Positions 28,904-64,000 of a stretch of DNA of 64,000 nucleotides are shown here, one piece after another. Below the pieces are notes generated by a model that was not told the DNA's origin, made no database searches, and saw only the letters and a program-made list of their open reading frames with translations. Position 1 is the first letter of the stretch. Each line of letters begins with the position of its first letter. The DNA lies in the NCBI GenBank assembly GCA_037447655.1, contig JBBHKE010000726.1:99875-163874 (forward strand), in the 5' to 3' direction. Made by a program: the position numbers and the translations under genes. The stretch comes from Zygnema cylindricum. Its lineage: Eukaryota > Streptophyta > Zygnematophyceae > Zygnematales > Zygnemataceae.

Positions 28904-30236
28904 TGATAGATTCTTTGTGAAACGACGTATCAAATATGTTGAGCGTCGTAATATAATTTATGTAGTTGCGTGTGGCGTGGTGTGATTGGTTTAGTTGAAA
29001 TATTGTTTGGTTTTGGTTTTGCGTGCGTAGTACCTTGGTAACCTTAGTATTGTACGGCGGTATGTTTGTTTAGTACAGTACCGCGTACTTTATGTAGTTT
29101 CGGTAGTTCTTTGTTTTGATTGGTTCGCGCGTGTACTTTTGTATGACCTGGATTGTCCTGTACTTGTTAGTTTCGTGAGAAGGTATTTACGTAGTGTTGT
29201 GTATCGGTAAAAAACTTATCGCGATAACCCCGATACCGATAGTTATCGGTTATTGAACGGTCTGCGGTTCCGATATATTTGTACTTTCTGTACTTTCTGT
29301 CCGGAGTGCTTTCTGTCCGGTAAACTGAACGGTAAATTTACGAAAAATGTACGGTTGTTTACGGGAAATGTACGAAATTTGACTAAAAAATACGTTGCAC
29401 TTTGTAGTACTTTTTGGGCTGTTAACTGAACATAAATTTTACGGGAACGTACGGAATTGTACTGATAAACTGATTATCATAGAACGGTAAAAAGACGGCG
29501 GACACAAAGTAGAACGGATGCAAAATAACATTATGCACGCCGCCGGAATCGAACGGACGACATTCAATGAGAAAATACGAGCGGACGGTCAGCGTGAGCG
29601 CCAGCATCTCGGAATGGCTTTTTTGGCGGCTTTTGCCAAAAAAGCCGACGGATTGACACGTGGCAGGTTTCCAGTGGATCCCAGAAAATAAAGGGACAAA
29701 GCCACGACGTCGAATGTGAAAGGTACATCGTCTTAACTGGAGCCGTACTAAAGCCGTACACATCTTATGCCGGCTACTGTACTTTCTGCTTGTACAAATG
29801 ATCTGATTGGTAGGTACCTCAGGGGTTGTGAGTAGGGCGCGTCTGGGGAATAAGACGTACAGTTGAGTGTACATGCCGTACATATATCTGTACGGATCGT
29901 ACATTATCGTCGATAGTTATCGTTATCGGCATTATCGCCGATAAGTAGCCGATATTATCAGCTACTTATCGGCGATAAGACCGATAGCGATATATCCTAC
30001 CAATATATCGATTATCGGGTCCCCGAAAAAAGGCCCATATCGGTTATCGGCAAATCCTTACCGATACACAACACTAGTAATTAGGACTTAGTCGTTTGGG
30101 GGAAACTATCATCTTTGTAAGGGGAAACTTCCGGTGAAATATATTTGTCTTTTGCTGGAGTGTCTTCTTCTTCCTGTCTCTTCCTTCCGCACTATATTCT
30201 GTCTTTCATCTATTCTTGTGTGAATCGATCCTTACA
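28904..30236 (+). repeat. Copia 5' LTR, interrupted
   Basis: Starts TGATAGATTCTTTGTGAAAC, ends GATCCTTACA two bases before the PBS. Without the 885-bp insertion the LTR is about 450 bp. It matches 35182-35268 plus 42888-43289. Confidence 0.8.
29192..30076. mobile_element. hAT-like MITE inside the copia LTR
   Basis: Terminal inverted repeat TAGTGTTGTGTATCGGTAA, read inverted at the right end. Near-duplicate flanks are GTATTTAC and GTAATTAG, and the empty site in the other LTR reads GTATTTAG (about 43127). Subterminal CCGATAAC/GTTATCGG words recur, as at many hAT ends. No transposase. The interior holds the GTACGG-rich repeat also found at 5395-5660. Confidence 0.75.
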
Positions 30237-30238
30237 AG

Positions 30239-30250
30239 TGGTATCAAAGC
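30239..30250 (+). promoter_or_regulatory. Copia primer-binding site (tRNA-iMet type)
   Basis: TGGTATCAAAGC, two bases after the LTR end, differs at one base from the usual plant initiator-tRNA PBS TGGTATCAGAGC. Confidence 0.85.
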
Positions 30251-30277
30251 TAGCTTGCTCCATTAAGACTTCTCAAG

Positions 30278-33200
30278 GTGGCAAGTCTTGCCGCCATGGG
30301 GGGAAAGAAGAAGAAGTCCTCATCCACACCTTCTCCTATTGCGGCTCCTAATCCGGATCTACCGAATCTGCCGGATCTGGCCGATTCATCTCCAGATCAG
30401 AGTGTGAAAGATTTCGGCTTCGGAGGAGAGACTTTTGAAAAGGGTTCTCCCTCCAACCCACTTCCAAAAGGAGACGAAGAGAAGAAGGAAGGGGTAGTGC
30501 TAATCGAAGATAGCCTCAACGAGTTATTTGATGGCTTTCTCACTCTCGTAGATCAACGGATCTCGGATGCAAATCGAAAGGGGAAATTCAAGGTGGAGGA
30601 GGATCCTATCTTGGATTCTTTGGAGATCGCTTCGGATGGAGGGGTCGAGGATGACGATGTTTTGAGGGAGGCTCTCCGAAAGGGGAAATTTGTGATCGAT
30701 AATGATTCGGATCTAGAATATGAATCCGATGACGAGTTAACTATTCCTTCTATGCCGGGGAAGATCGTTCTTTTTAACGGATCTAACTACCAAATTTGGA
30801 AGAAGTACATCAAAGCTCAACTCATCCTCCGTCACCTTTGGAAGATCGTGAACGGGGAAGAAAAGATGTCGATCAACAATCCGAAGGCTCGCCGCCTTTA
30901 AAAGAAAAAAAATCTTGCCACAATCACCGGTCTCATGCAATCTTGTACCTCATTGTTGCATGATCATTTTCTTACCCGAGATACAGCGCATGAGTGTTGG
31001 AAGGCGCTCGAAGGCCAATTTGAGAAGGGACTCCAAAACAAGGGGCAATATGCTTACACGGACTTTATCCAATTTAAGATAAAGTCTAACGAATCGATTG
31101 ATGATGCGATCAAGCGATATAATATTATTGTGGAGCAACTCTCGAACAACGGTCGGATTATTATCGAGGAGGATAAAGTGATCGGTCTAATCAATGCGTT
31201 ACCCGACAATCTTACTTACCTTAAAGAAATACGTTGGGCGCAAACGAATCCGACTTATGAATTTATCGTGAATTATCTTAAAACCACCGAAAGTAATTGC
31301 AGAGGTCCTCCTAAAGCTTCGGCCTCGGGTGGATCTCTGAACGCATCCTCCGAAGAACCGGCGGATCTAAATTTTCTCCGTGGGGGAAGAGGGGGAAGGG
31401 GAAGAGGAGGCGAAACTAGGGGAAGGGGGAGAAGCACCTAAAGGAGAGGAAACTTTCTCGGGCAACCTCCTTTCCAAGACCAGCCTGCAGTGACATGTTT
31501 TCGCTGCAACAAGGCCGGCCATATGTCCTCATCATGCCCGGATAAGGAGAAATAATGCCACTATTGCGGGAGATGGGGACATATTAGTCCTCAATGTTAC
31601 GCGAGATCTGACGGCGGTGGCGGCCGCGGCGGTCGCGGCGGCGGCAACGACAGATTTAATGGACGTGGCGGTGGTCGATTTGATAGAGGGGGGCGCGGTG
31701 GACGTGGCGGCCGATTCGGCGGCCATGGACACTTCGTTGGGGAGAATGATGAACGAGACGAATGACCGATTACCTTTTCTACCCTAAGTGTCACCAATGA
31801 ATCTCCGTCCTTCGAAACGCAAAACGACAAAGAGTGGATCATTGACAACGGCGCTTCGCATCACGTATGTACGGACAACACACTTTTTGACGAAATGCGC
31901 ACGTTGACCGTACCGAAAATTATTACGGTCGCCAGTGGTCAAGTTATTTCTATTGGTACAGTTGGTACCTTACGACTTGACTTAATTTCGCTACATCTAA
32001 ATGGATTTGAGCGAATCTTTGAGATTCAACTCCTTAATTTACTTTATATTCTTGGTGACTCAGCGAATCTTTTATGCGTACCCCAAATCCAGAGATCTGG
32101 CGCGAGCGTGTACGCCTTGGGAGATTCTACAATCAAAATTGTACAACCTGATGGAATTACGATCGGAGAGGGGGAAATGTCTGACGCATTCCATAGTCGT
32201 GTTTTATGGAAGCGTCCAAAGCCAAAACGTCATGAAGACGGCATCATTGGACAGATCGTCGAAATCAAAGGGGATCTGACACCTTTGCACCATCAAATGT
32301 GCCATACGTCAGAACAAATTTTGAAACGTATGATCAAAGTCGGTTGCACGCGCGGCTTAGATCTGACGTCAGGAGAAAAAGTCAACGGCTGTGACAGATG
32401 TAGTCAAGGGCGTCAGATCCGCAAACCCCATCCTACTAAAGACGCGAATTTTCGGTGAACGCATCCACTTGAAAAAGTACACGTGGATCTTTGTGATGAC
32501 GTGAAGCCTGAAAGTTTGGGGGGGAATAAATATATAATGGTTATTGTCGACGATTATTCAAGATTCACATGGGTATATCTCCTTAAAAATAAATTCGATG
32601 CATCCGCAAAATTTGAAGAGTGGCATGTAATGGCCGAACGACAATGTGAGCGAAAATTAAAAGCGGTTCGATCGGACAATGGCGGAGAATTCAAGGCATT
32701 TGATTGCTATTGTAAGACATGGGGGATTCGGCAAGAATTTACGGCATCATACTCACCGGAATCAAATGGAATCGCCGAGCGCAAAAATCAAACACTTCAA
32801 GAAATGGTGCTCTCGATGATTCAAGGATCGAGAAGAAAATAGTATTTATTGGGAGATACAATCCTAACGACTAATTATACTTGTAATCGTCAAATCACCT
32901 CTATTTCGGGCGATAAGACTCCTCATGAACTTTGGTATGGTCAAAAACGCGCATTACATCATTTGCGAATTCGGGGGTGCCGTGCGACGGTGTACGTCGA
33001 ATCGGTAAAACGACGAGGTAAATTTTCTTTTCGTAGTTGGTCGAGAATGTTTGTGGGGTATAGCTCTAAAGGGAGTTTATACCGGGTTCATGATCCGATT
33101 CGTCATGTTATTGAAGAGAGTCGTAAAGTCAATTTTCATGAGGATCTCAAAGTTGCTATCTCTCGTTCCGAAAAATCCTCTACTAATCATGATTTTTTTG

Positions 33201-35150
33201 AAGTGAATGAATCTTTCTCTTTTCCTCATCTTGATGATTCAGATTCTGAATATGAGGCGGATCTGGTCGTCAACATTAAGAGGGGGAAAGCTAATTCCGA
33301 AATTCATCCGGAATTAATTAATTTTGACGAGATCCGAAGTGAAAAATCCCGAATGACTTCGGACATTCGCCGATCTAAAAGCTCTAAATCTCCGAGTGTT
33401 TCTTGCCACGAGGAAGAACCCGAAATTGAAAAATCCGCAAATGAGAAATAAAATGAAATGCCATTGAGAAAGAGTCAACGTGAGACAAAGGGGTAGAAGC
33501 CGGATCGACTATCATTTGATCGCAAAGGTGGAAATGTTGAAAATTCCAATTATTTTATTTAGGCCGCCTCAGAAGAGGCGTTTATTTTGTAGCAATCATT
33601 GACCGAGTATATGCCCAGCGATCCCCAATCTTACGCCGAGGCACGAAGTTCTATGGATTGGGAGGATAAGTGGAAACCGGCATGGGAGAGAGAATTGAAA
33701 TCCATTATCGATAATAAAACTTTTGAGGAGGTGAGTTTACGGAGGGGAAGAAGGCGATTGATGCTAAATAGATATTTACAACAAAAACTGGTGCTACAGG
33801 GGAGATTATTAAATATAAGGCTAGATTGCTGTGTAAGGGTGTTTAACAAGTAGAGGGGGTTGGTTATTCGGAAACTTATGCACCGGTTGTTAAGTTTGAT
33901 TCTTTGAGATTGATAATTGCTTTTGCGGCCGCGGGGAATAAACACATACATTAGATAGATGTAGAAACAACCTTTTTCAATGGAGAATTAGAAGAGGAGG
34001 TCTATATGAAGGTGCCCAAGGGTGTGCCTTCAAAGGGAGAAAAAGTATGGCGGCTGCAAAAATCCTTGTACGGATTAAAACAAGCGCCAAGGACATGGTA
34101 CCTTTGCCTTCATAAGGTACTTACTAATTATGGTTTTGTTTGTACAATTTCGGAACCGGAGTCGAAGTGAAATGAGAGGGAAAGGACCAAATTATTTTTT
34201 TTGTGTATGTCGATGACTTCCTAATGATTAGTGACACGTTGTCTGTTATTAATTAGTTAAAAGAGTACCTAAGCATGTATTTTAAAGTTACGGATCTTGG
34301 AGAAGTAAGGTACATTTTGGGGATAGAAGGCATAAGGTCCAACGAGAATGTAATTAAATTAAGTTTAGCTCAGTACTGTAGAGAGGTCTCGACTAGATTT
34401 GGTATGATTGGCGCGAAACCTGTCTCGACGCCATTAGATCCAAAAGTACCGTACAGAAAGTACGAAGAGGAAGAAAATGTTTTAGTACCATATCGTGAAG
34501 TAGTTGGTAGTTTGATGTATTTGAGTGTAGGCACGCGTCCGGATATTGCGGGGCCAGTGTCAGTTGTTAGTCGTTATTGTAACGCTCCAAAAAAAAATCA
34601 TTGGGAGGCAGTGAAACGAGTATTTCGCTACTTGGCAGGTACAATCGATTTTGGCCTGGTATATACTTCCAAACGAGACTCTTTGCACTGTATCGGTTAC
34701 TGCGACGCAAATTCGGGAGGAGATTTTGACAGTGGAAAATCCACGTCAGGATACGTTTTTATTTTGGGCGGCGCGGGAGTATCTTGGAGTTCGCGACTCC
34801 AACCTACAGTTGCGGTAAGTTCCACGCAATCTGAATATATGTCTGCGTGTCATACTTCGAAGGCGTCTGTATGAATCATGGAAATGCTTGGTGAGTTGGG
34901 CGTGTTGATTGGATGCATGCAAATTTTTATTAACAGCATGAGCTCCATGGCGCTCGTGAAAAATCTGGTCTTTCACAAACGTACAAAACATATACGCATC
35001 TAGTGGCACTTCGTACGAGATTTGGTTGCAGCGAAGGAGATAGAGTTTACGTACGTGTCGACTTTGGAGGAGACCGCAGATATGTTGACTAAAACGGGGG
35101 TTTATGACGTACTTTTACGTGGACGACCTAAGTTAGGATTGTTCTCATTT
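30278..35150 (+). pseudogene. Ty1/copia Gag-Pol remnant
   Basis: Visible domains: Gag (YQIWKKYIKAQLILRHLW near 30790; UBN2-type helices 30935-31300), a Gly/Arg-rich tail, and two zinc knuckles (CFRCNKAGHMSSSC and CHYCGRWGH, 31497-31600). Then come protease (WIIDNGASHH near 31840; the usual DSG reads DNG), a pre-integrase His/Cys segment (32285-32410), and the integrase triad (VDDYSRF, RSDNGGEF, NGIAERKN, 32483-32842). Reverse transcriptase (33599-34240, with YVDD) and RNase H (34275-35150) follow. From 30278 to about 33740 everything is in one frame, interrupted only by stops (30899, 31439, 31553, 32456, 32840, 33449 and more). Two frame changes follow, near 33740 and 34150. Not functional as it stands. 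Confidence 0.85.
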
Positions 35151-35151
35151 T

Positions 35152-35181
35152 AAGAGGGGGGTTTCACAATGAGAGGGGGAT
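35152..35181 (+). promoter_or_regulatory. Copia polypurine tract
   Basis: AAGAGGGGGG followed by GAGAGGGGGAT directly before the 3' LTR start TGTTAGATTC at 35182. Confidence 0.75.
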
Positions 35182-35268
35182 TGTTAGATTCATTGTGAAA
35201 CGGCGTCTCAGTTTGTTAAGCGCCGTACTATAGTTTATGTAGTTAGCGTGTGACGTAGTTTGGCGTGA
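35182..35268 (+). repeat. Copia 3' LTR, first part
   Basis: TGTTAGATTCATTGTGAAAC... up to GGCGTGA, matching the start of the 5' LTR. It is broken by the element at 35269 and continues at 42888. Confidence 0.75.
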
Positions 35269-35431
35269 TGTCGAGCCCATGGTTGTGATGCTTCATGCAA
35301 GAAGAATAATATATAAATTTGGCGACAAATAACACTCCACGTGTAGAATTCCATACGTCGGAATAGAATGATCATCCTGACAACATTAGTGTGGACATAT
35401 AAATGATAAAAACAATGAAAAGACAGAAAAG

Positions 35432-36665
35432 TTATCCACCCCGTCCCAATGTTGGGACCGTCGGGTTCACTCCTGAATCATTCTGTGTATTGGTGTCAAT
35501 AATCCTGCCAGGGGAACCTAAGCAATATGCATGGCTCCGGGGAAAAGAAACACGAGTGGGGAGTGCGCCTCTCGGCTGACCGGATTTGTTGGAGTCATAA
35601 AATGGTTGTCGAGGTGTAGACGTGACAGGAGTAGCTGTACGGCCTTTGTCCAAAATCTGATCGACGGTGAGGTTTGGAGGACGCTTTTGTAATCCCACGG
35701 CTGCTTTCAACAGTGAAAGAGGAGCAAGATTGGTCCAATACGAGCGAAGACGATAAGCACGAGACCCCATCTGAGCTGCATCAAACACCAAAGGCTCCCC
35801 TAAATAGTGAATTGTCTCTTGCCAAGCAGTAACTACCTTACTACGTTGATCCGCACCAGGAAAGACATTCTCCAACAAATATCCCAACGGTTTGTGCTGA
35901 TGTAGTTGCAAAAAGATTGAGAATAAAAACCATTTGATAGAATAAACGACTCCGACTGTCACAATTTCCCCTTCCCTTCCCTGCCTGAGAATACCCCTGA
36001 CAAGGCCAGCCGGCTATCACTAAATCTACCCCCCCCAAATCTCGGTTGTGTTGCGAGGTAATCAAGTCAACATTTTGTGGGAGTCGATGATGAGATTGTG
36101 AAATAGCAGAAACATGTAATTGGAGAGGGTACAATCGGTGAAGCTCTAATAGTCGAAATTCGCTCGCTGCCCGAGCTGAAGATGAAATTTCCACGGCCCA
36201 ATAACTTCTAATCTGGTGGTCGTTCATCAATAAATCTTCTAAATCCGTACTAATGCCAAAAAATAAGGAGACCACTGTTAACCCTGCCGGCTCCGGTGTC
36301 AAATCAACCACTTTCCGAGGAAGTGGCTTCAAAATTTGGCCCTGAATAAAATGTTGAAATTCGGTCCATCTTTTACATTCTTTTGTCGTAGAAGGCAATG
36401 TCTTCTCATCTATCAAAACCTTCAACACTTTTTCGTGACTTCGTCTCAAAGAAGCCGCTACCTCCAATCTGCGTTTGTGGGATTCCTCCCACTCAGCGGA
36501 GATCGGGAATTGGTATACAAACGGTGCAATGTCGGTGGATTCATCCTCCGATTCCATAGAAAATTTAGAAGAATGAATTGAGGACACATTGCTAGTGTAA
36601 ACGGGGGTAGCAGCCTGCTGCTGCCTGTTGGGAATGGTGACGTCCCCACAAGGTGAGAGGGACAA
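35432..36665 (-). CDS. Retroelement-encoded cytosine-5 DNA methyltransferase
   Basis: Two overlapping minus frames, 36665-35841 and 35962-35432, together carry the C5-MTase motifs in order. Motif I is VVSLFFGIS (residues 131-139, last Gly replaced by Ser) and motif II/III is YWAVEI (155-160). Motif IV is AGWPCQGYSQAGKG with the catalytic Cys (222), followed by DSRSRLFYQ. After a frame change near 35940 come motif VI LLENVFPG and motif VIII YRLRSYWTNL. Then a segment GALPTRVSFPRSHAY resembles the target-recognition end, after which the frame stops without clear motifs IX-X. PCQ (not PCN) argues against a DRM/DNMT3 origin. It overlaps the protease ORF by 74 nt in another frame, so expression may use frameshifting. 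The single-base frame break probably inactivates this copy, unless it is an assembly error. Confidence 0.75.
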
Positions 36666-37761
36666 AAACTCGGCGAGCCGGTGAAGTTGGCAAATCCCGA
36701 ATGCTGATTTGTTCGCTCCAAAAATCTACCATGGCTCCCAATCGGGTCCAAGTGTGTGTTCCCAATAAAATTTCAAACTGGTTGCCCTCGACCACGAGGA
36801 AAGGAAGGCGAATAGAAATCTTTTGACCTGCATCATCCCCAAATTCGATGTCCATGCCCTTCACCATACCAAAAACTGGTTGATTACCACTACTAACTGT
36901 ACTTAGGCACACCTTGCTTGGGAATACTTTCGGCCTGCAATTGGGTGGTAACTTCTCCAAAGCACTAGTAGATATAAGGTTAGGAAGGGCACCAGTATCA
37001 ACCACTGTCTGGAGAAAACCACCAAAACTATTGATCTTAAAGTGTCCAGTAGAATTTCCAATATATGCAACGGCTAAAGAGGAGTAATCCCTATCGGCGA
37101 TTGGCACCTTTGCCGAGCTAGCGAAACTGGAATCGGAAGATGAAATGGGTGCTCCAAAGGCATCTGTGGATGTCACCCTGCCGGTGATCTTAGATCCTAA
37201 TGCCGAAATGAGTTCCTCAACCGAAATTTGGTGGGAGTTAGCCAAAGTGCGAACTAACTCTATAGAGTGTGGGATGAGAAGATCCACCAACATGGCGGAG
37301 GGCCGAGAAGGTGGGACAGGCGGATTCGATACCGAAGTAGGATGAGATTCCACCTTAATGGTGAGAGGAGAAGTAGAGGATTTGTTCGATTTGTCTTCTA
37401 TTGTGTCTGGTGGGACTGGATCAGAGGTTGGATCAACAGAAGTGGTCATCTTTGGTGGAGGTGGTGGGGGAGAATCAGCCTTAACCCCCAAACCGACTTT
37501 CGTCTTCAAAAGGACTTGCCGAGGGGTAAAAGAAAGAATGTCAGATTGCCCCTTCCTCTCATGATCAATGGGTTTCGCTGGTAACTTGTCTTTCCTGTGA
37601 TCCTCAGTGGTTTTTCTTAATTGTCTCCTACTCTCTCCAATGCCAACATTAAACAAAATCGGATCACCTGCAAACAATCCACTTATCCGAGAGTGGTCTG
37701 AACTCTCCCATCCTTCCGGATCCTCCTCTGAATCTGAATCTTGTGTCTGTAAAGCTTCCAT
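36592..37761 (-). CDS. Retropepsin-like aspartic protease ORF
   Basis: 389 codons. The N-terminal 200 residues are low-complexity (PPPPPPKMTTS, Ser/Pro/Thr). The C-terminal half has the single-domain retroviral-type protease pattern, with TVVDTGALPNLIS (Asp-Thr-Gly active site) and later EILLGTHTWTRLGAMVDF (hydrophobic-hydrophobic-Gly strand). It is in the same frame as the Gag ORF and separated from it by one TAG (37765-37767) followed by CAA. That is the context of leaky stops in some retroviruses and plant RNA viruses. It likely processes the Gag/methyltransferase polyprotein. Confidence 0.75.
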   Translation of the reverse strand: MEALQTQDSDSEEDPEGWESSDHSRISGLFAGDPILFNVGIGESRRQLRKTTEDHRKDKLPAKPIDHERKGQSDILSFTPRQVLLKTKVGLGVKADSPPPPPPKMTTSVDPTSDPVPPDTIEDKSNKSSTSPLTIKVESHPTSVSNPPVPPSRPSAMLVDLLIPHSIELVRTLANSHQISVEELISALGSKITGRVTSTDAFGAPISSSDSSFASSAKVPIADRDYSSLAVAYIGNSTGHFKINSFGGFLQTVVDTGALPNLISTSALEKLPPNCRPKVFPSKVCLSTVSSGNQPVFGMVKGMDIEFGDDAGQKISIRLPFLVVEGNQFEILLGTHTWTRLGAMVDFWSEQISIRDLPTSPARRVFVPLTLWGRHHSQQAAAGCYPRLH

Positions 37762-37764
37762 TTG

Positions 37765-40371
37765 CTAAGTTAGGTAAGCCAATCGTGCCTCTTTCTCTAA
37801 TTTCTTGGTCGACTTTGAAGAAGAAGCACCTTTGCTTGCGTTCACTCTCATCAATAAATCAAGTTTGAGTTTAACTTCCGACAACTCTTTGTGTAATTTT
37901 GTTTCAAAAGTTGTTGGTTTTTCCAATTGTGCCCCCCAAACCGGATTTGGTTCATTCCTCTTCCCCTCGGGTTGAAATGTCCCACGAGGAAGATAAATCT
38001 GACAAAATGTCGGAAAACTCATAAATGCCTTCCCAGTAGCAGGATTAGTTTTCACATATTTAAGCAATTCTTTCGGAATCCCGTGTTTCCGAAAACATTG
38101 AGCCGCCGTATGGCTCTGATATCCACACGCCTCGCATGTGGTGTTGGGAGTAGAGAACTTTGCCCGCAAATCATCAGGAATGTTCCGATGGTCCAACTGA
38201 GGAAGCTTAATTCGACGAATTCTCTGAAATTCCACCTGCTGTGCATCTGATGTGTCACCTCCTTTCCCGTGATCTCGACCTCCACCTTCCTTTCCGTTTT
38301 TCTGATCACGAATTCCACGTGCCACATTCCGAGCATCTCGTTTGTCGTCAATCTTTGCCCTCTTTGCTGCTAACTCAACTGATAAAGGTCTCGGACATTT
38401 TTGCCACCCATGTCCAACTTGTCCACAATTGTTGCATGGGAATAAGATTTGTCTATCCGCTCCGTGAGCTTGCGGATTCGGTTCAGCCACTCCTTTCCCC
38501 TTCATTGCTCGAGATACGGCGGCATTTAATTCAGCAATGGTGACAAAAGGAGTGTTGGATCCAGCAAATGCTTCCTCTTTTCGAACTTTCCCTGTCATGG
38601 TCCTCTCTAGAGCTTCTCGATCTGCAAAATGATCATGGTATTTTTGAGCAACGGTAGCAAGATCAAAAGCAGTGATAGGATGTCCATTGAGAGCCTTTTG
38701 GGCTGTCCAATTCTCTAAATTTCGGGTCGTTTTCAGATCAAGGGATTTTGATAACGCATGTTCAAACTTAGCAATTATCAACGGATTCTTAATATTTTGC
38801 TGAGTCCGAACACAAAGATTAGCAAGGCGGTTGTACATAGTGAGAGGAGTTTCATCTGGCTTTCGTTTAAATTCATGGAACTCTCGCATGGAAGCCTCAT
38901 TTCGCTCGGTATACTGAGTCTCCCATATACCCAATAATGTGGTAGAAGGTTGGGAATTCGCCTACATCGTCGTAGCAGCAATTGCGGCATATTCTGATCT
39001 CTTCATCTGGGAGTAAGCCGATGTCTCATCACGTAACTTATCATCAAACGTGTACGTGGCTGAAATTGGGTGACGGATAGTTGCCTCTAGATCAGCAACC
39101 GCAGTAACATGGGCGTGGTCTAAGGTCGGATCTGAAATTTTGATGGTTGGAGAAGTTAAACTCGTCTTCCTCTCCATGTAATCCGATAAAGCCCCACCTG
39201 CCAATCGATCCACCATCATGGGAAATAACATCCGCTCTAAGTCTATCGGTACAACACCTCCTCGATACTTGTTAACTTCAGCGGCATAAAAAGACTCCCA
39301 TTGGAGTTTAAACAATGAAAAAGAAATGCCCGATGCATCCCCTGTAAATAACCTCGAGTTATCCCCCATCCGGAAACCGTCCTCAAACGGCAATCGAAAC
39401 CCCCTGGTTTCCCTGGTACTGGTATCAAAGATAGGAGAAAGGGGATTTCCAAAAGATGGCACACTCCCACTCGGTGAAAGAGGATCGGGTGGCCTTGAAG
39501 GGCTACAAGAATCAGGAACAACTGACGAGGATTTTGAAGAGGAAGGGGAAGAAGGGGTGGATGGTGAAGAAGGAGGGGAATGAGATGAAATTGATTTCTC
39601 TATGATTTTACCTCCATCACCCTGCCGGTGCACATGTTCCTCTTCCTCAATAGGTGGAGGATGGGAATGAGATGAGCTAAAGGTGGGATTGGGGTCTAAG
39701 TCACTAGTAGGCGGAATAGGAGAAATGGGTGAAGATGGTGCAGAAGACGAGGTGGAGGAGCTAGAGGGAGAAGGAGGTGAAGGAGAGGGGTTTGTTTTGA
39801 TATGGGGAATGATAAGGGATATAGTTACAGGAATGGGTGAGAGTTGTTGCGATCTAATTTCCAAATTTTCTTGTACTTTTTGAAAATTCTCCTTGAAAAT
39901 CACCCTTGGATCCACTCGAAGTCTAACTCTCCGATTGTCTGTTCCATTTGGTGATGAAATGTGTGTTGCTTCCGTCCCCGTCTTTTCCTGTACCAATGCA
40001 TCAGATCCAGAGAGAGTATCATCAGTCCCTCTAACCCCTTGTGGTCTTTTCCTAGACAATCGCCCAACCCCCAATGGTTTAGTTGTTGCCCTGGACGATT
40101 CCCCCACTTCCCTTCTAATTTTCGTGACCCTTTTAATCCCAATCTGTCCCTTTCCACTCTTCCCTAACCTTGTGGAAGCATCTCTCTCTACCCCAACGTT
40201 TAATTCCGCTTGAATGGCAGACATCAACCGAGTTAAATCAAACCGTTGGTGTCCAACGGAACGCATAATGGGAGGAAAAATAGGATCGATAGGGGGAGGA
40301 ATGGGAAGGAGATGCTCAAAATGTCGAGGAATGGGGGTCGAAATCTGATCTATATTCGGGACCTCCTCCAA
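37765..40371 (-). CDS. Gag polyprotein with two CCHC zinc knuckles, split by an amber codon
   Basis: Two same-frame open stretches, 40371-38962 and 38934-37765, are separated by TAG at 38962-38964. The first begins with low-complexity Pro/Ser/Arg sequence. It ends in a globular part (FKLQWESFYAAEVNKYRG, LERMLFPMMVDRLAGGAL). The second continues the capsid-like fold (MREFHEFKRKPDETPLTMYN). It has zinc knuckles CNNCGQVGHGWQKC (residue 167) and CEACGYQSHTAAQC (residue 267) and ends in a coiled, Lys-rich tail. It resembles Ty3-type Gag. It overlaps ORF1 by 22 nt in another frame. Confidence 0.7.
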
Positions 40372-41567
40372 AGGTGCTTCTCTGGATCAGGAGCCCCTGC
40401 AGATCTGTATCGAAAAAGGAGGGAGTTTAGTTCTGGATTGTTGGTCGGAGTAAGTACCAATGATGGAATAGGAAATAAGTCATCCCTTGGACCTGTTCCA
40501 CGTACGCCCAAATCCCCCTCCACTATAGGCTCAATCCCTGCCGATTTATTTGAGAAAAGACTCCAATCTCGTTGTTCAACCTTTGGTGTAGCATTTGCGC
40601 CCCCTTCCTCTACTTCCCCCAAAATTGGATCTCCGAGTGTTCCAATTTTTCCCTCTACCTCATGTAACTCTGGAATCTGGACCGGTAAATCAGGTTGTAC
40701 CCCTTCTACAACTAATTCCGAAATTACTCCTCCTTGCTCTTGATTCCCCCCCCCCCCCGTGGGTGAAGGAAAGTCAGCAATTTTCCCCTCTTTCGACGAA
40801 ACCTTGCCAAAATTGGGAGAAGGTGGTGAAGATGTGGGAAAATTCAATGTTGAGGAATCCCCTAGGTCCAATATAGGCCTCCTAGCTGTTAGATCCCTCG
40901 GGTTTTGTCTTCCATAACCGCTCCCCAAAGTAACGGATTCGGCGGTCGAAAAATCAGAATGTGGTAGCGGAGGAATCTTCGACTTTTCCTTCCCTTGGCT
41001 CCTCCATGATTCGGACACGTCTGCTCTCGACCTAGCTCCTCTATTAGTATCTTTAGGACCCCTTCGATCACGTGATTGTTGCCCATACAAAGCCCTAAGC
41101 TCGTTCCTCCCAACGATTTCCTGTAAGTCTGGTGGTGGAATTGGGAACTTAAGGTGAGGTTGCTTAGCACGGGTAGCTGGTCCAGTTATAGGAGAGTGAG
41201 TGGAAGCTGCCGAATAAGAAGAAGGAGAATGTGAAGCCCTCCTAATTGGTGGAAATGGCCGAGAAGCTCGTCTTCGCTCAACGGATTCTGCTAGAGTGGG
41301 GAAATCTTCAGTTGACATCCCAATGGGAGGAGTGGACGGAAGAGGAGAAATTGGGGAAGGACTTGGGAGATTTGGAGGGTCTTGTCCTCCACCTGTAGGA
41401 GAAACCGATGGCACCGATGGCTTCCCCGAATCTGCAGAAATTTGGCCAGCCCTCCGGGAAGAAGAACTAGTTTCACCCATTTCCGGGGTTCCAAACATGT
41501 CTCTACGAGGTGCCCCCCCACCTCCCCTACCATTCCAACATCCATCTATATTTTTTTTTTTTGACAT
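40350..41567 (-). CDS. Retroelement ORF1, Pro/Ser/Arg-rich, unknown function
   Basis: 405 codons beginning MSKKKNIDGCWNGRGGGGAP. It is highly disordered in appearance, with many SPS, PPS and GGG segments and basic patches (ERRRASRPFPPIRRAS). One less repetitive block, PPPDLQEIVGRNELRALYGQ, might fold. First ORF of the element; the region just upstream (41568-41700) is its likely leader. I recognise no family. It could be an N-terminal Gag extension read by frameshift into the 40371-38962 frame. Confidence 0.6.
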   Translation of the reverse strand: MSKKKNIDGCWNGRGGGGAPRRDMFGTPEMGETSSSSRRAGQISADSGKPSVPSVSPTGGGQDPPNLPSPSPISPLPSTPPIGMSTEDFPTLAESVERRRASRPFPPIRRASHSPSSYSAASTHSPITGPATRAKQPHLKFPIPPPDLQEIVGRNELRALYGQQSRDRRGPKDTNRGARSRADVSESWRSQGKEKSKIPPLPHSDFSTAESVTLGSGYGRQNPRDLTARRPILDLGDSSTLNFPTSSPPSPNFGKVSSKEGKIADFPSPTGGGGNQEQGGVISELVVEGVQPDLPVQIPELHEVEGKIGTLGDPILGEVEEGGANATPKVEQRDWSLFSNKSAGIEPIVEGDLGVRGTGPRDDLFPIPSLVLTPTNNPELNSLLFRYRSAGAPDPEKHLWRRSRI

Positions 41568-42887
41568 TTTAAATAAAATAAACTGAAATCAAAGACACAA
41601 GTGCACCTTATAAGAAATACAACAATGCACGGTCTCTCAGTTCTGTCTAACCGCGAGCTTTAATATCATCAAGCTCGGTGGGCTATGCTAACAACTTTAA
41701 ACAAAAGAAAGTCAACCATAACCCTAATCCTGGGAATTAACAAATCAAATCAAAATGGAAATAATTTAGACTGCCATAACATTTATGACAGTGATCTCTG
41801 CAGACTTAACAATATTGCCTCCTACCCTACTCAAACAGCAGCCATTCACCACAATACATAAACATATTCCAAATAATTAAGCACAAAATAAGTAACATTC
41901 AAGCGTCCCCAAATGCTAACTTAATAAGGGTTTTGACCCACCCAGAGGAGCAAACTGAGGCCACGGAAAAACTCCCGTGATCAGACTCCAAAGATCCCGA
42001 AACCCCACGGATCCCTCCAAATCAGGGATCCGTCCAACTCCCTCCTTTAGAATCCCAAGGACTATTGCAATCAAAAAGCCCCAAGCATCCTTGTTGCCAA
42101 ACAAGACACAAATTGACTAACTGGAAGGCAACTCCAACATGATCCAAAGATGGCAAAAGGGAGGCTGGCAAAATAGCTCTTTTCTGGTGAGTTAAGGTTT
42201 CGGAAGGCGACAGAACTGAGAGACAGTTCTGAGCCTTCATTTCCAAGGCAATATTGAGTTCCAACAACCTAAAACACTTAGAACTAATACTTAGCATCAA
42301 AAACTGACACTACGGGACTTATTCTATGTTTAATTCCCGAAAACGTCAGAACCTTTGACTTATGAACCGTCGGTTGGACAGCCTGTACCAATTTCCAACC
42401 GACAAAAGCAATCATTACTTCGAAAAGTCAGTAATTAACCTATATTATGCAGTTTACAGAAACTGCCATATCTCTCCAAATATCTATTTGATTAATACAA
42501 ACCAAATCTTATTGAAAAGGTATTAAAAAGTTCTATCTACCAATATAAAATACAGCGTATTTGAATGATCCGTTGCAAAGTTACTGTACATCAAAGTTTT
42601 CAAAAACTGTACCAAAAGACTACTTTGACCTAACATATCTCGTAGCCTAATTATCCAAATTAAGTAAAGTAAAGTTCTATCAGCTACGCTACATAGAATG
42701 TAATAGGACGTTTGATTCCAGATCAAAAAAATAAACGGTGGAGTCAAAATCGTCTCTCAAAAATAGCTTTTGGTGCCATGCCGGCCCAATAATAACTAAC
42801 TCCAAAATTGGTCCGAAACCGCATCCAATGAAGTCATAATAGGGTCGAAATTCCTCCATAGGCAATAAAATATAATCGTGCATGACA
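41568..42887 (-). other. 5' leader of the methyltransferase element
   Basis: About 1.3 kb without a convincing frame, between the element's right end (TGTCATGCACG read on the minus strand) and ORF1. No sequence shared with the 3' end (35269-35431) was seen, so LTRs are either absent, very short or too diverged to see. No primer-binding site was identified. Confidence 0.5.
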
Positions 42888-43289
42888 GTGATATGATTGG
42901 TTTGTCTTAAATATAGTTTGGTTTGGTTTTGCGAGCGTTGTACTTTAGATTCGTACGATAGTCGTATGTTTTTGTTTGGTACCTTATATTTATACACGCG
43001 GATATCATATTTTTGTATAGTACCGCATATAGTACTTTCGCTTTGTTGGTACTTTGTGTTGATTGGTTTGCGCGCGTACTTTTGTACGACATGTGATAGA
43101 GTAGTACCTTTGGTAGGAGTTTGGAGTATTTAGGACTTAGTCGTTTGGGGGAAAAGTATTCTTTTTGTAAGAGGGGGAAAACATCCGGTGAAATATATTT
43201 GTCTTTTGATGGATTGCTCTCTTTTTGTAGTCTCTTGCTTCCGCACTTCATTCATTCTTTCTTCTATCATATTGTGGTTTATTTTAACA
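42888..43289 (+). repeat. Copia 3' LTR, second part
   Basis: Continues the LTR (ATGATTGGTTTG, GGTTTTGCG, TTAGGACTTAGTCGTTTGGG, CTTCCGCAC...) and ends TTTTAACA. It contains the empty site GTATTTAG corresponding to the hAT-like insertion in the 5' LTR. Confidence 0.75.
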
Positions 43290-44309: not shown

Positions 44310-44885
44310 TTTATTTTATTGCCATGTCTCTATCTTTTGTCTCTTGTGACAATTGTGCTCTATTGATCTCTTTCCCTAATTCTATCTTTTTATCTTTTTT
44401 CTACCTTTTGGCTTTCTGTCTCGCTGTCTCTCTCTTTGTCTCTCTGTTTTTGTGTCTCTGTCTTGTGAATCTCTGTCATGTCTCTTTGTTTGTCACGTAT
44501 CTCTGTCTGTGACGTATCTCATGTCTCTCTGTCTGTCACATATCTCTTTGTCTTGTCTCTCAATTCTTGTCTCTTTGTCTATGTCTCACTGTCTCTCTGT
44601 CTTTTATCTCTTTCTCTTTCTCTCATTCTCCTGTCTGTCTCTACCTCTCTCTCTTTCTCTCTTTTATTATGCTTTGTCTTTTTGTTTCTTTCTCTCTGTC
44701 TCTGCATGCGTCTCTTTTTTTATGTCTCTCTATGCGTCTTTTTTTTTCTGTCTTTTGGCTCCATATCCGTCTCTGTGTTTCTGTCTCTTTGTCTTGTGTC
44801 TCTTTGTCACTCTCTATCTCTCTCTGTCTCCGTTGCAATATCGTATGTCTTTGTCTCTTTGTCTCCTTTCTCTTGTTGTCTTACT
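44310..44885. repeat. TCTCTGTC/TTTGTCTC pyrimidine array
   Basis: Degenerate TCTCTGTCTCTTTGTC repeats. The long Leu/Ser/Cys/Phe frames on the plus strand are repeat translations, not genes. Confidence 0.85.
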
Positions 44886-45480
44886 GAGAACAAAGTTGAA
44901 GACACTCCACATCTTTCAATTCCATGTGTTATAAGTTACAAGTTTCAGCTACGGGTGTTCCCAGTTTCAGTTTTCACAGTTGTTCCCAGTTTTGTTTTGG
45001 TTTTCAGTGGATTCCAAGCTTCTTCTAGACAATCAATTTACATTTCAATGGGAACTACAGTGACTTTTAAGCCGTATCTTTCAACTACATGTGTTCTCAT
45101 TCCTAATTTTAGTTAACAATTTTGAGTAAGTGTTCAACTAACTTTGTCACTTACATCTTTCAACTGTTGAGGTCCTTTACCTTACTTGTTGAAATTGATC
45201 AATTTCCATGTTTGAGATATGTTCCAATATAGTGATGACTTAAATTTATCAATTCCAGTCGCGGTTCTCGATAACAACAATCAAATGCTTACCATCCTCG
45301 GTATAAAACTTAAGTGTATTGTTCTGTGAACAATAATACTCAGATTTAAGGATTCAAGTACGATAATCGTTTTAATGTGCTCTGCTGTAGAGCTCAGTTA
45401 CAATTAATAGATAGTTAATATAAACACTTGTTACAACAATAAGTAATAATGCTCACTACTTCAATTAGATGGTTTAAGTG
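44886..45480. other. Spacer between opposite arrays, no gene seen
   Basis: AT-rich unique sequence between the pyrimidine and purine arrays. Confidence 0.55.
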
Positions 45481-45509
45481 CGGAAATAAGCATTATAACA
45501 AGCCCAAAA

Positions 45510-47050
45510 ATACACAGGGACTATAAATAAGATACAAGAGACAGAGACAAAGATACGGAGACAAAGAGACGAAGAGATAAAGTAAGAAACAAGAGACAAG
45601 ATAGAAGATACACAGACAAGATACAAAGAAAAAGACAGAGACAAAGAAGATATAGAGACAAGATACAGAGACAGAGAAAGATAAGATACAAAGACAAAGA
45701 AACATAAGGCAGAGAGACATAAGACAAAGAGACAAAGAAAAGATATAGAGACAGAGACAAAGAAAGACAAGATACATAGACAAAGATATACATTAACAAA
45801 GAGAGAATGACAGAGGTAGCATAGACATAGACAATGAGACAAAGATAGAAATAGAGTCAGACTCACATAGAGAGAGACAGATAAAATTTAGACAGACAAG
45901 AGACAGAAAAACGTCAAAGACGAAGCAAAAACATAGTTAGCCTCACATAAGCTAAAGAGACAGAGATACAAAGGCAGGGAGAGACATACAAAGAGAGACA
46001 CAAGACAAAAAGACAGACAGAGAGACGGATAAAGAGAGACAGAGAGAAAAAGTAAGAAATGGGAGACAAGATATAAAGACAGGGACAGAGACAAGGGTAG
46101 ATATGATACAAAGACAGAGAAAGACAGAAATAGAGAAATACATAGACATAGACAAAGACACGGGGACAAAGACAAAGTCAGTCTCACACAGACAGAGATA
46201 AAGAAAAGAGAGAGGCATAGAAAAACAAGAGAAAAGATAGTGAAAAGAAAGGGACTGCAACATAGTTAGAATCACAAAGACAAAGACAGAGAAAAGACAA
46301 AGTCAAACTCACAGAGACAGAGAAAAGACAGAGAAAAGAGAGTTAAAGACAAAGACAACAACATAGTCAAACTCATAAAGATAGATACAAAGAAAAGAGA
46401 TGTTAGAGAAGAGACAGATGCTGACAGAGAGGCTGAGACTCAAAGATAGAGAGACATACAAAGAGAGAAACAAGACAAAAAGACAAAGACAGAGAAACAG
46501 ATATAGAGAGACAAAGAGAAAAAGTAAGAAATAGGAGATAAGATAAAAAGACACGAACAAAGACAGACAATATATAAAGACAGAGATAGACAGAAATAAA
46601 AAAATAGGCATATAGATACACAAAGAGACAGTGAAAAAGACATTATAAACATAGACAAAGAGACCGACAAAGAAACGAGAACAGAGACAGAATCAGACTC
46701 ACACGAACAAAAACAGGGAAAAAAGAGAGACAGAGGAAAGATAGGGAAAAGACAGGGATAGCAACAGAGACAGACAGACAAAAGAGACGTAATACAAGAG
46801 ATAGATACAATGGAAAAAACGGAGAGAAATAGAGAGAGTTGGAGCCAGAGTTAAACTCACAAAGACAGATATCAAAAGAGACGTCAGACAAGAGACAGAT
46901 AGAATGAAAAACAGGAAGAGACACAGAGAGAGTTGGAGCCAGAGTCAAACCCATAGAGACACAGACAAAAGAGACGTCAGACAAGAGAGAGATACAATAA
47001 AAAACACAGAGAGACATAGAGAGAGTTGGAGCCATGTTCAAACATAGATA
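45510..47050. repeat. GACAAAGAGACA purine array
   Basis: 1.5 kb of GAGACAAAGA/AGACAGAGA repeats, the complement of the 44310-44885 array. The two could pair into a long imperfect hairpin with a ~600-bp loop. A 110-120-bp higher-order unit containing GAGAGAGTTGGAGCC recurs at about 46840-47035. Confidence 0.85.
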
Positions 47051-47568
47051 GACATATTGGTTATCAAGAGACGAGAGAAAATAGAAAAAATATATTAAAT
47101 TTCATATTGATGTTTTTAAAGATTACATAATTCCCTGACTCACCCTTTTAGTTTTCCAAAGATAAAAGTATTGAAAATAGAGGAACCCACAAACATATTT
47201 TCAGAAAAAAGTTTAATCCTTTCCCAACCAAAAAAAATTAAATAAAACATACCTCAATAACATTATTTTCTGTCTTCTTTTTTTTCCGTAAACTAGTCAG
47301 AATTTGTTTTAATGTTACCTTATAAAAAATATAACACCTTCCTATGATTTTGGCATTCAAAGTTATTACATAACTTTTCTAGCTATAAAAATTCCTTGGA
47401 AGAAAGTTTACAAAAAAATAATTTTTAGTATACTTTCAATGGTTGCAACAATGGATGAGATCACTTGATTTACAATTCGGTCAAGGGTATTTTTGACCGA
47501 TCGAAGAAGCTCTCAATGTAATCCATGTTGGTCTTTGTTTGTTTCCTTCAACATTTCTCTAAGCTCTT
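47051..47568. other. AT-rich spacer, no gene seen
   Basis: No coding or RNA feature recognised. Confidence 0.55.
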
Positions 47569-58965: not shown

Positions 58966-61900
58966 TCAAATATATTTCTGGACATCCATGCGTGGCAGAA
59001 TATCCCTAAAACCTTCTCCTCCAATCACAGCACAACAATCTCGCATATCGGGTTGATCCTTGTTTTGATTGTCTATGCAAATAAATCCGAGACGCAACAA
59101 CCTTTCGAGGTAATCGAGCATTCCAGGAGAAACTCTTTCGGTTTGACTGACGTCCTTTCGAAGCACGTGGATTGCCTGCATTCAAGAGAATGAAGGAAAC
59201 TAAAGATTGAAATGAAATTAAAGAGTGGTGCTTCAAAAAAGCTATTGTCAAGATCGTTTCTCAGGAAACTTGGGACGGAAAATTACCCACTTGTCATGGC
59301 ATATCAAAACGAACAACTTGTTTGATGCTTAAGTCAATAATCAAAATATTATGAACCAAAATAAATGGATCGTGACCTTCGAATTTCTGTTTGTATACCA
59401 ACGCAAGAGGATTTTCAGCAATGGCAACATTCAAGTACGATACATCATTCATCTTTCATCATTTTTCTAGAATCGATAAGAGAGGAAAGAAAGACACACC
59501 CACTGTTGGAAAGTGAATGTATTGGGAATCTCTCTGACAAGCTCTGTAATGGACATGCCGATAAGAAGCTCAATCAATAATTCTCCATAGGAATATACAT
59601 CTGTCTCCCTAGGGGGAAGATTCACCGGCATCCGAAAATCTGAGAGATGGTTGAATTCAAACGCTGCCAATTTTCAATCTTCGTAAGTAAATTAGTTTTA
59701 GCTTTGAGCTTGAAACAAGTATAACTTACAGAATCTCACACTAGTTTATTTCACCTAAGCGAGCTACAAAACCTGTTGTTATGATGCATGTTCCCTTCTA
59801 TGTATTCTGACATGTTTATGTCAACATGGGATCCAATAATCGCCTTAAAGAGAGTGTCCCATTTTAAATCGATCTCTTCCAAATTCATCAAGGTTAAGTA
59901 AAACAAAAATAAATCTAAGCGGAAAGGCACAAGAGTTCTTACATTTGTTCAATCTTCGCATTTGGCTTGATCCAAATTTGGCAACCACTGGCTTCCAATC
60001 GTGTTCGAGAAACACAACATCAGCCTGTTAAGAATCCCATAGTTTTTGGTCTAATTATCGTTCAATGATATTTAGCCACAAATGCTTGCACAGACAAAAA
60101 AAATTATCTACAAAAATATCACAAGTCACTCACAACTGTACTTCTTTATTGGCTTTGCAGGTTAGAAAAAAACGTCACACACCCATCATTGAAACACCTT
60201 TGCAATCCAATTCTTTACACGCGTTAAAACTGCCTCATTTTAATGTCCAACTTCATGAATGAAGCCTACACTTATCTTTAGATGATTTAAATAATTGGTA
60301 GAGTTACAAGTCCTCACTTGGAGGTCGCGATGGAAAGTCGGGGGATCACATTCCCAGTGAAGGAAACTGATGACCGATGCCACCCCCTTAGCAATAATTG
60401 GCCTGTATTTGATGGGGATTGGTGGTAAAGGTCCTCCTGCTATGTCACACTCCATCTTAGTGAAATAAGAATTAATAAGTACACCCTAGTTAAGATATCA
60501 CATTCAGAATCTGTGACCACATCAACTAAGTCGTTTACTGTTGTAGAAATGAACTGTTATTATTTTTTATGAGAAGAAAGTTTTTCAAAGTATATGTGCC
60601 ATCTTTGACCATTCGGCTTTAAGGATTTCAAAGATGTTAAAGTATGTTGATGCCATTTTGAACACTAGGAGGCCTACCCCACATTTCCGATTAAGTCATG
60701 CATTTAATCAATGTCTAGATCCATGAAAAGAAAAATGATGAAAAATAGCAAGTAATTGTTTTAACTGAAAATGTAAACATGTTTCTTCTAAATCCCACGA
60801 ATTTTCAACAAAATGATAAAGGTATGAGAAGTAATATTTGTACACAAGATCAAGGTAATTCAGAAAATTGCGGGAACTCATTTAACACTTTTTCCTGGAT
60901 TGCCATACAACTCACCGTTCGAATGATAGATACAAATGTGGATGCAAACCTGGTGAGCATCTTATTGTTGTTTCCTAGGTGTTGACTATAAAGAGGGAAA
61001 GCAACAGAGGGCTGTGATTCAAGCAAAGGAATATCCTGACTTAATTCGCACTTAAGCACATTCCTCCAAACCACTAGTTGGAAAAAGAAATACCTCTTAG
61101 ATGGCTTGCCACAGAATCATTCGGTGGCATTGCATATAGCAAAACGCCCTCTTTTGGCTCTATGCATAACCCCTTTGCTTGGAGGAGATTGGGGTGACCC
61201 ATCCGAGTTGTGTCATCAAGTGCTTTCAAGAAGGGCTTTGACCCTCTAACGTTCGAATACTGCAAAAGAAAAAAATAAAAAATAAACAAAAGATAAATTC
61301 AAAATGCAGTTTCTAAGGGACGCAGACGAGTACGCCTGATTTTTAGGTTGGCAAATTGTAGCGTATCGTATAGAAGACAGAATCTCTGTTTGCTTCATGT
61401 GCAAAGTGCTTTTAGGCAATCATTACAAGCATTGTTATCAAATTAGATGAGCATTGTATAAACCAACAATCGAAATCTACAAAGCTTGCAAAAAAACCTA
61501 TGACAGGCTAGAATTGATTGAGGTCAAGCAGAACAACAAGCCAAAAAAAGATGTAAGGATTTTTATTCGAAGTTTTAACACCGGGTAAGATGCCGGCCAA
61601 AGAAAATCTGTTTTCATGGATAGGACTCCATAGTTATTGGTTAAAGTCCTCTTACATCGAAGCCGGAAAACATCATCCATAACAGATTCAAATGTTACTT
61701 GTTCTTATGACACTATTGTTAGTCCTATACAATAAAAGCTTGTAATGAAACATATATTTTAGCATATTTAGGTTCAGTTTTATCTACATATGTTAATTCA
61801 ATCCACAATAATGATTATGCAACAAAGTCAATGGTGACATCGCAAACATTCAGGAAAAAACCACGCAGATTGCTTGGAAGCGCAGGTCCCGGATTTAGAC

Positions 61901-63330
61901 AATTGAAATGAGATCTCATACCAGAATATAGATGCACGAAAAGAGAGGGAAGTTCTCACCTTAAACCAATTGACTAAAACTTGTTGCCCTTCATAACGAT
62001 CTTTGCAAACTACATAATTTTGTCCTTCTTTGAAAGGTAGAGAAGCTCGAAAAGGAGATATCTCTCGTGAAGAGAACTGATGTAACCCACCCAGAGTTTT
62101 TTCAGCTGCATTGAAAAAACAAATGATAAGCTCATTATCTCCTAGAAAGATGTACCACAAATGGCAGGTAGAAATTCCCTCCTATAAACTGGAAATCGTC
62201 AGCTGTCATTATCCAAATGTAGGTAATATCTGGGGCCTTCTGGGTTCCGCCTTCCGTTTTGTAGTGTATAAGAAACAATATAATCTCGGCATCAGCAAGG
62301 AAATCTTGTTTTCATCCAGCCAACAAAAGGTCTTCCATAATTACATCTTACTATTGGGTGTAACTTGTGTTAATGTCCTTTTTTTTTAGGTACATCTAGA
62401 AGCACTAGCAATTAATTTCACAATCTAGCATGTCCTTTCATCCAAAATTTCAGGTCGATATTCTCGTTTTATAATTGTATAACTTACATGGTGTCATGGA
62501 GTTTGCTTCAATGTGAAAACGTACAGACGAGTCTCGTGGACGCTGAGATGGTTTTTGGTAACAACAAATATAATAACAAAAACAGTATAAAAGTACGTAG
62601 AATGCCGTTGACGTGACAATGGGTAGAATGACGTTGATCAATACATTTCGTACTTTAGACTCTGCCAAAGCACAACAATTTGACTCCAAATTTAATCTAT
62701 GACAAATTAAACATGATGAATAATAGTACAAATCCCCATGTGTAATTTGTTCGACAAAAGAGTTATAGCATGTGTCTTATCACCGAAACCAGCTTGAAAT
62801 CCACACATTTCACAAACATGTGCCATCGGATCCAACTTGCAGTCTGCATAATTTTTTCCCAAACAATGTAATTCATATTTGCATTATTTGTTGTTTACAG
62901 TGTAGATGTTTTACACGTGACCTCTGATATGCACTATGAAAGATTCTTACGATTTATCTCTCCAACATTTTGAATGCTCTTGTATATCTTGACAGAAACG
63001 ATATAAACCTCACTATGCAAGGATATGCAAGATCCTGAAAAGAAAATCCAACCACCACCTGTAATTGTAACCAAGTTGCCACACACTTTCACTTTTAAAC
63101 TTGCATAAAAATTGAAATATGCTCTTTTATGCTCTTAATATGCTCTTATGGATATTAGTGTTATGAGATGAGACATTCTTGTTGTAATGGTGGGTGAGTT
63201 AACTTACCGCGTGAAGGTCGTGGCAGGCTTGCTATCGGCAATTCCAACAAAACACAAACAACAACATCAAGGGTCACGCGACTCAAACAAAACATAACCA
63301 TGCGATGGATTTCATGATAGGATGTTACCT
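58966..63330 (-). CDS. Receptor-like pseudokinase, multi-exon
   Basis: The exon chain on the minus strand has consistent phases: about 63328-63209, 63037-62949, 62847-62796, 62661-62488, 62105-61960, 61259-61094, 60436-60318, 60024-59943, 59663-59500, 59175-58966. The N-terminus has a hydrophobic stretch (VTLDVVVCVLLELPIASL), then a small Cys segment (HCKLDPMAHVCEMCGF). One membrane helix follows (NVLINVILPIVTSTAFYVLL), then a kinase-fold domain. HPNLLQAKGLCIEPKEGVLL, FLHWECDPPTFHRDLQ, TDVYSYGELLIELLIG and LLRLGFICIDNQ mark it. The Gly loop is absent, the VAVK Lys is replaced (VLVNWF), HRD is kept but the following Asn is lost, and DFG reads KFG. So it is probably catalytically dead but folded, acting at the plasma membrane by binding. 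No frame breaks. First exons least certain. Confidence 0.7.
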
Positions 63331-63599
63331 AAAAAAAATTTAATCTAAATGTAAATGGTGGCATCCTACATAAATAACACAACTTCACTATCAGTCTGTC
63401 CCGAGGCACATGTATAAAAGTAATAAACATACATAATTTGGGTTAACTACAAAACTTTTGTGAAACAAATAAGCCATAGTAGTCTAGTACCTAAAATTTC
63501 TCCTAATTTTAGGTAACGTTTCATGAAAGCAATTATTTTTTGTTCAGGAGAACATTACTACCATGTGAACAACAACTACCACGAGGGGTCTTCAGTTTC

Positions 63600-63865: not shown

Positions 63866-64000
63866 CTGCCACAAGTCGATCATAAATGAGATATACCGTT
63901 CAGAAAACGTGATAAAATTGTGGACTTTCACCCATTTGGAACAATATCCAATCATTACCCCAAACTTCTAAAAAATAGGAATTGAGAAGGTAAGCCAATT
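63866..64000 (-). other. Intron upstream of the EGF exon
   Basis: AT-rich, ends in an acceptor at 63866-63870. A preceding exon, if any, lies outside the window. Confidence 0.4.

Follow-up and report, generated by a model that had tools for sequence, protein, structure and literature searches.

An insertion with Gag, protease and a truncated cytosine methyltransferase in Zygnema cylindricum, very probably a dead and rearranged copy of a Gypsy-type retrotransposon with a Dnmt3-type enzyme

Does an insertion that combines Gag, a protease and a cytosine-5 (C5) DNA methyltransferase (DNMT), with no visible reverse transcriptase (RT), represent a distinct non-autonomous kind of mobile element, as its initial annotation proposed? 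The insertion in question is a minus-strand insert of 7,619 bp at positions 35269-42887 of a 64,000-nucleotide stretch of the Zygnema cylindricum genome (contig JBBHKE010000726.1, positions 99,875 to 163,874; hereafter the window, in which all positions are given). The unit is very probably a dead copy, with internal rearrangement, of a Gypsy-type retrotransposon that is present in multiple copies and encodes a Dnmt3-type enzyme between protease and RT. Here the DNMT breaks off midway and runs directly into the terminal block B, an arrangement that eliminates RT, RNase H and integrase together with one of two B blocks (the first or the second) and a second copy of the other terminal block (A2).

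The host genome searched comprised 352,776,454 bases in 2,689 contigs. The Gag piece of the unit has at least 105 matches in it (104 of 1,167 candidates scored), and at least 93 stretches are related to the methyltransferase P0001 (93 of 1,703 candidates scored), a 455-amino acid (aa) protein filed under a bacterium (Obscuribacterales) and 43% identical to the window enzyme over 94% of the query region. Gag and DNMT lie on one strand approximately 2.4-3.1 kb apart at at least 22 other places, counted by hand among the matches listed. Two of the relatives, C895 and C1515, share 97.6% identity with the window unit over Gag-Pro-DNMT and 98.5-98.8% over their A blocks. At the point where the window copy jumps to B they instead carry NERERAMGF...RLIGQAMDL, followed by an open reading frame (ORF) of 1,090 aa. 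This ORF in C895 (L024:3255-6524) matches RVT_1 (1.4e-29), RT_RNaseH (1.9e-35) and rve (5e-12), with a PHD finger just under the cut-off (4.3e-5). RT, RNase H and rve integrase, a Gypsy-type pol, were found in C895, C1374, C1344 and the public contig L008; the PHD finger is clear in C1344 (2.5e-10) and L008 (4.3e-10) and below the cut-off in C895 and C1374. The scanned ORFs of these relatives include rve and Integrase_H2C2 and no tyrosine recombinase (phage-integrase) match.

The order in close relatives is thus A - Gag - Pro - DNMT - RT - RNase H - integrase - B - A - B, against A - Gag - Pro - partial DNMT - B in the window copy. Measured on C895, 3,578 bp are gone if the joint leads to the first B (B1) or 5,039 bp if it leads to the second (B2), that is, L024 2997 to 6574 or 8035. 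The joint itself has a single genome match, the window copy, at up to three mismatches in 32 bases. Relatives elsewhere in the genome, for which the initial annotation suggested a search, do exist as a multi-copy family, but the close copies C895 and C1515 carry RT and the window structure is private.

The borders of the unit are exact. It ends in TGTC...GACA and is flanked by a GTGA target duplication (35265-35268 and 42888-42891), within the 3' long terminal repeat (LTR) of a plus-strand copia element whose sister (5') LTR retains the empty site. The flanks fused minus one GTGA contain GGCGTGATATGATTGG and the sister LTR at 28974 reads GGCGTGGTGTGATTGG, identical at 14 of 16 positions without a gap, so that the borders and the 4-bp duplication are real; two gapped alignments of the empty site had taken out 5 or 0 bases instead. 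Because T comes next after GTGA at either border, the duplication of this copy may measure 4 or 5 bp. These results bear out the TG...CA ends and GTGA(T) duplication first described, and place Gag, the DTG protease and the C5 methyltransferase inside one insertion border. No terminal direct repeat was detected in the unit, as the first 1,330 and last 170 bases score 37, a value equalled in 11 of 200 shuffles. Hidden LTRs were rejected on this score and on self-comparisons, and a DNA transposon with terminal inverted repeats was rejected on an inverted score of 25, equalled in 88 of 200 shuffles, and on the presence of RT in relatives.

On the minus strand the unit begins with the 1,242-bp A block (41646-42887), which starts TGTCATGC and corresponds to both A blocks (A1 and A2) of C895 and C1515. 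N-terminal Gag or leader ORFs follow (38965-41567, first ATG at 41567), then the Gag part with two zinc-knuckle-like motifs (37768-38961), recognized by eye in the Gag-like ORFs, Pfam giving no zinc-knuckle match for the window ORFs. The retropepsin-like DTG protease domain (36757-37014; residues 251-336 of ORF 36592-37764) matches PF13650 below the cut-off (E 0.003, 18.7 bits against 24.3). The C5 methyltransferase (35484-36283) matches PF00145 above the cut-off (E 3.1e-9) and runs through motif VIII, aligning with P0001 to just before motif IX and then ending; the stretch missing there is the one in which relatives retain ERERAMGF and RLIGQAMDL. The copy has neither motif IX nor X, which a complete enzyme would carry besides I, IV, VI and VIII (by the usual numbering of motifs). 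At the private joint (35481-35486) stands ACAGAA, which also occurs where A2 meets B2 in C895, and its GAA recurs in the context of B1; the joint leads into the 215-bp B block (35269-35483), which ends CTCGACA and recurs after the polypurine tract and after A2 in C895 and C1515. As the initial annotation stated, no RT, RNase H or integrase is visible, with no Pfam match to any of the three in the 16 ORFs scanned out of 70 ORFs of at least 45 aa.

The coding frame of the window copy is broken by two in-frame TAG codons and frame breaks near 40370, 36640 and 35920. The first of these breaks is not in C1515, and other copies have breaks of their own. A genetic code reading TAG as an amino acid was considered and dropped, the window TAG codons being absent from C895 and C1515. 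A protein search with the window Gag gave no matches, and scans of viral contigs with window pieces returned only one ordinary phage methyltransferase (L001). P0001 had no match in viral contigs or in public genome contigs, and its structure predicted without an alignment (mean predicted local distance difference test score, pLDDT, of 34) was of no use.

A profile of six relatives ranked DNMT3A/B/C chains first (5.5e-19 to 1.3e-14), ahead of HaeIII (4.1e-9), HhaI (5.7e-8), DRM (1.3e-6) and DNMT2 (9.9e-5), and judged by this ranking of similarities the relatives' enzyme is of Dnmt3 type. The window half-domain alone ranks HhaI (0.0013) ahead of DNMT3B (0.064). Ratios of nonsynonymous to synonymous substitution rates (dN/dS) were computed against C895 with our own Nei-Gojobori script. 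For DNMT they are 0.17 in C412, 0.22 in C1735 and 0.25 in C1233; the same three copies give 0.18-0.22 in Gag-Pro, and pol gives 0.15 in C1233 and 0.23 in C1735. The window copy has 0.81 in Gag-Pro and 0.96 in DNMT, which fits a dead copy. The suggestion that the unit may methylate its own DNA cannot be inferred for a copy with this DNMT ratio and without motifs IX-X; by analogy, the enzyme of intact copies probably methylates new element DNA. CpG observed/expected is 0.68 in the window unit and in C895, 0.82 in the rest of the window, 1.22 in the copia interior and 0.85-0.92 in C1344. The pol ORFs of C895 (L024:3255-6524) and C1515 (L021:3361-6630) are identical over 1,090 codons and the same pair differs in Gag-Pro and DNMT (dS 0.011-0.013); the pol identity may be due to recombination, conversion or an assembly effect.

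How the window copy came to be joined in this way is best approached from the fuller copies C895, C1515 and C1344, which read A - coding - polypurine tract - B - GC - A - B, with TGTC...GACA ends and a 4-bp duplication. The plan in C895 and C1515 is A1 - coding - purine tract AAGAAGGGGGGG - B1 - GC - A2 - B2, in which A1 matches A2 at 1235 positions in C895 and 1236 in C1515, out of 1242, and B1 matches B2 at 213 of 215; in the distant C1344, which has the same plan, A1 equals A2 over 931 bp. The B1-A2 spacer is 2 nucleotides (nt) in 11 of 12 cases and GC in 7, and the internal B/A site forms the palindrome GACAGCTGTC, also present in L008. The window copy has a single A and a single B. A canonical LTR element has identical direct LTRs as its two outer ends, which were not found in the window copy, C895, C1515 or C1344, the latter three starting with A and finishing with B; the TG...CA ends and short target duplication of such elements are present. 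Exact 4-bp duplications flank 10 of the 16 copies with both outer ends (window, C895, C1515, C398, C1344, C2603, C656, C1326, C2239 and C2127), compared with 3 of 240 mispaired flanks. Outside the 16 are C859, C77, C1232 and C862, with no A start in the stretch, and C1625, with no B end.

Of 66 candidate B copies 40 were scored, 32 of these being examined with 100 bases upstream. B is preceded by the polypurine tract in 19 of the 40, by the end of A in 14 and by internal coding sequence in 7. The A/B joints of the 14 copies take eight forms by eye, one occurring in five copies, one in three and six singly. The seven internal joints all differ and all reach B at nt 1-6; they are forward in the window copy, C2239, C1625 and C431 and inverted in C2127, C375a and C1851. 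Both C2239, in which Pro runs to B, and C2127, in which inverted Gag runs to B, have exact target duplications. Two other arrangements were seen: a 564-bp piece of the A block lies inside the element in C398 (L025 7936-8499, within coding) and C1735 (L034 8476-9038), a rearrangement, and in C1326 (258513-260168) B1-GC-A2 leads not to an A/B joint but to another pol end, after which come a purine tract and B.

We tentatively propose, as a plausible reading of these structures, that Dnmt-bearing Gypsy elements insert via their rve integrase from circles opened at the LTR palindrome (GACA-GC-TGTC), not from linear complementary DNA (cDNA) ends. Given the roles of purine tract and LTR in reverse transcription, the LTR would be B+A, because the purine tract directly precedes B. 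Insertions begin with A and finish with B, their ends corresponding to the TGTC and GACA halves of the B/A site inside the element. The cDNA ends would be joined imprecisely into circles, at times to an internal site, and the circle would be opened at the B/A palindrome and then inserted. A-coding-B would be the opened form of a circle with one LTR, and A-coding-B-A-B that of a circle with two, in which end joining made the A/B joint; window-type units would be rearranged circles. Insertion from circles would account for the repeats being split, for the variety of A/B joints and for joints that are internal or inverted. Granting that the window unit is a rearranged copy, the chances would be about even that its DNMT/B joint predates insertion.

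Several observations weigh against this account, in which the circle step is read from the structure of copies. We hold it less probable because two further close copies, C359 and C398, are missing most of pol through deletions that leave B intact, with nine shared nt in C359, and because no A/B repeats were detected in C1374; the losses in C359 and C398 show that ordinary deletion also occurs in the family. Six of the 16 copies lack an exact duplication (C844b and C1100, each with 3 of 4 bases matching, and C2012, C431, C2462 and C510). Severely truncated B copies are under-sampled (40 of 66), so the clustering of joints at the start of B is partly ascertained; A/B joints also lie away from it, at nt 57 in C656 and nt 12 in C77, the coding match ends 19 nt short of B in C431 and 7 nt short in C2127 and C1851, and the C375a joint is compound. 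As to selection, the close pairs C1515, C398 and C359 give dN/dS of 0.27-1.02 against C895, with few changes, and the decayed C182 and C1337 give 0.50-0.53.

A fair rival for the window copy, if on balance unlikely, is normal insertion of a full-length element followed by a microhomology deletion, of approximately 3.6 kb if it reached to B1 or 5.0 kb if to B2. The ACAGAA in common with the C895 A2/B2 joint and the GAA in common with B1 suit such a deletion, as does the C359 deletion with its nine shared nt away from B, but it leaves unexplained how seven different internal partners (a partly ascertained list) reach B within 6 nt, and why three joints are inverted. It is less probable still that template switching during reverse transcription fused B to DNMT in one cDNA that then inserted in the usual way, as the bases in common at the joint could suggest, since three of seven internal joints are inverted, unlike simple same-strand switching.

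The distinct non-autonomous family of the initial annotation, a Gag-protease-methyltransferase element moved by the RT of a relative, is now very improbable. The window unit does have both termini and a target duplication, and in C2239 Gag and Pro also run directly into B with an exact duplication; however, the C2239 joint differs, the methyltransferase is truncated, C895 and C1515 carry RT, RNase H and integrase, and the window joint was found once, barring copies collapsed in the assembly or diverged by more than 3 of 32 bases. Many copies with one RT-less structure, as in the non-autonomous LTR families of the LARD or TR-GAG type, were thus not found. Virtually nothing speaks for a host methyltransferase gene flanked by unrelated Gag/protease insertions, for which no evidence was found, given the single insertion border round all parts and the same order at other loci, Gag and DNMT adjoining at the 22 or more other places, and here the initial annotation was right to regard the enzyme as part of the element.

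A whole element of this kind, Gag-Pro-DNMT-RT-RNase H-integrase-PHD, occupies L008 1-9285 (CADCWO010000201.1), filed under a Synechococcales cyanobacterium. The ends of L008 overlap by 127 bases, as expected from an assembled circular or tandem repeat. The contig is probably a eukaryotic contaminant, and P0001 looks like the same kind of case. Scans with A2 found six loci in viral contigs and five in public genome contigs, of which only L008 was used.

The plus-strand copia element that received the insertion (28904-43267) has LTRs approximately 75-83% identical, piece by piece. Its 5' LTR region spans 28904-30213, with the empty site at 28974-28989, and is defined by the self-BLAST pairs 28904-28978/35182-35256, 29035-29153/42976-43097 and 30076-30213/43125-43267; approximately 900 bp at 29154-30075 have no counterpart in the 3' LTR. 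The internal part (30214-35181) holds RVT_2 and SH3_retrovirus fragments in broken frames. The interrupted 3' LTR consists of a first piece ending in GTGA (35182-35268) and a remainder starting with GTGA (42888-43267). Elsewhere in the window, long purine- or pyrimidine-rich repeats with inverted copies lie at 44380-47101, and minus-strand ORF pieces at 60243-63879 resemble by eye a plant-type receptor kinase, with a cysteine-rich part, a membrane span and an HRD-like motif. No tRNA or Rfam match was obtained within the window.

The family adds a large genome rich in retrotransposons that carry a Dnmt3-type enzyme. Selection on that enzyme across three subfamilies (dN/dS 0.17-0.25) bears on whether such elements gain from methylating DNA, and the copies record how an integrase-type element can acquire DIRS-like split repeats. 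The circle junction as an integration substrate is an old idea for retroviruses; if insertion from circles were true, that idea would be revived in a living system in which it is testable.

DIRS/PAT-type elements have split direct repeats in the order A-coding-B-A-B, for which a circular intermediate has been proposed, and they use a tyrosine recombinase and are not known to make a target duplication. The repeat order is alike here, but the Zygnema elements have an rve integrase and 4-bp duplications. The same two features set them apart from SymbioLINE-Dnmt and SymbioDIRS-Dnmt3 of Symbiodinium, described in the portion of the source examined as retrotransposons with captured cytosine methyltransferases, one a LINE and the other a tyrosine-recombinase DIRS element (PMC5890265). 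A 2025 survey, in the part consulted, likewise has DNMT3 members residing in streptophyte and dinoflagellate retrotransposons, and names Copia and DIRS (PMC12344493). Nothing closer, on either the mechanism or other elements of this sort, was found in the open-access literature.

The nearest likeness is to KnitGypsy-Dnmt3 of Klebsormidium nitens, a published Gypsy element that combines a Dnmt3 with a DIRS-like arrangement of repeats (de Mendoza et al. 2018, PMC5890265). According to the sections examined, both share Gypsy domains, a Dnmt3 in the coding region, DIRS-like repeats and purifying selection on the methyltransferase, and self-methylation by such elements is a published hypothesis for these relatives (PMC5890265). 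Judged by Gypsy pol, Dnmt3-type enzyme and DIRS-like repeats (C895, C1515 and C1344), the family is of the KnitGypsy-Dnmt3 kind, a likeness of architecture that does not by itself imply common descent with the K. nitens elements. Target duplications, the B/A palindrome and internal-site joints are not mentioned for KnitGypsy-Dnmt3 in the portion of the text examined (PMC5890265). The Zygnema family differs in belonging to another genome, with at least 93 related methyltransferase stretches, and the window copy differs in being an RT-less, private rearrangement.

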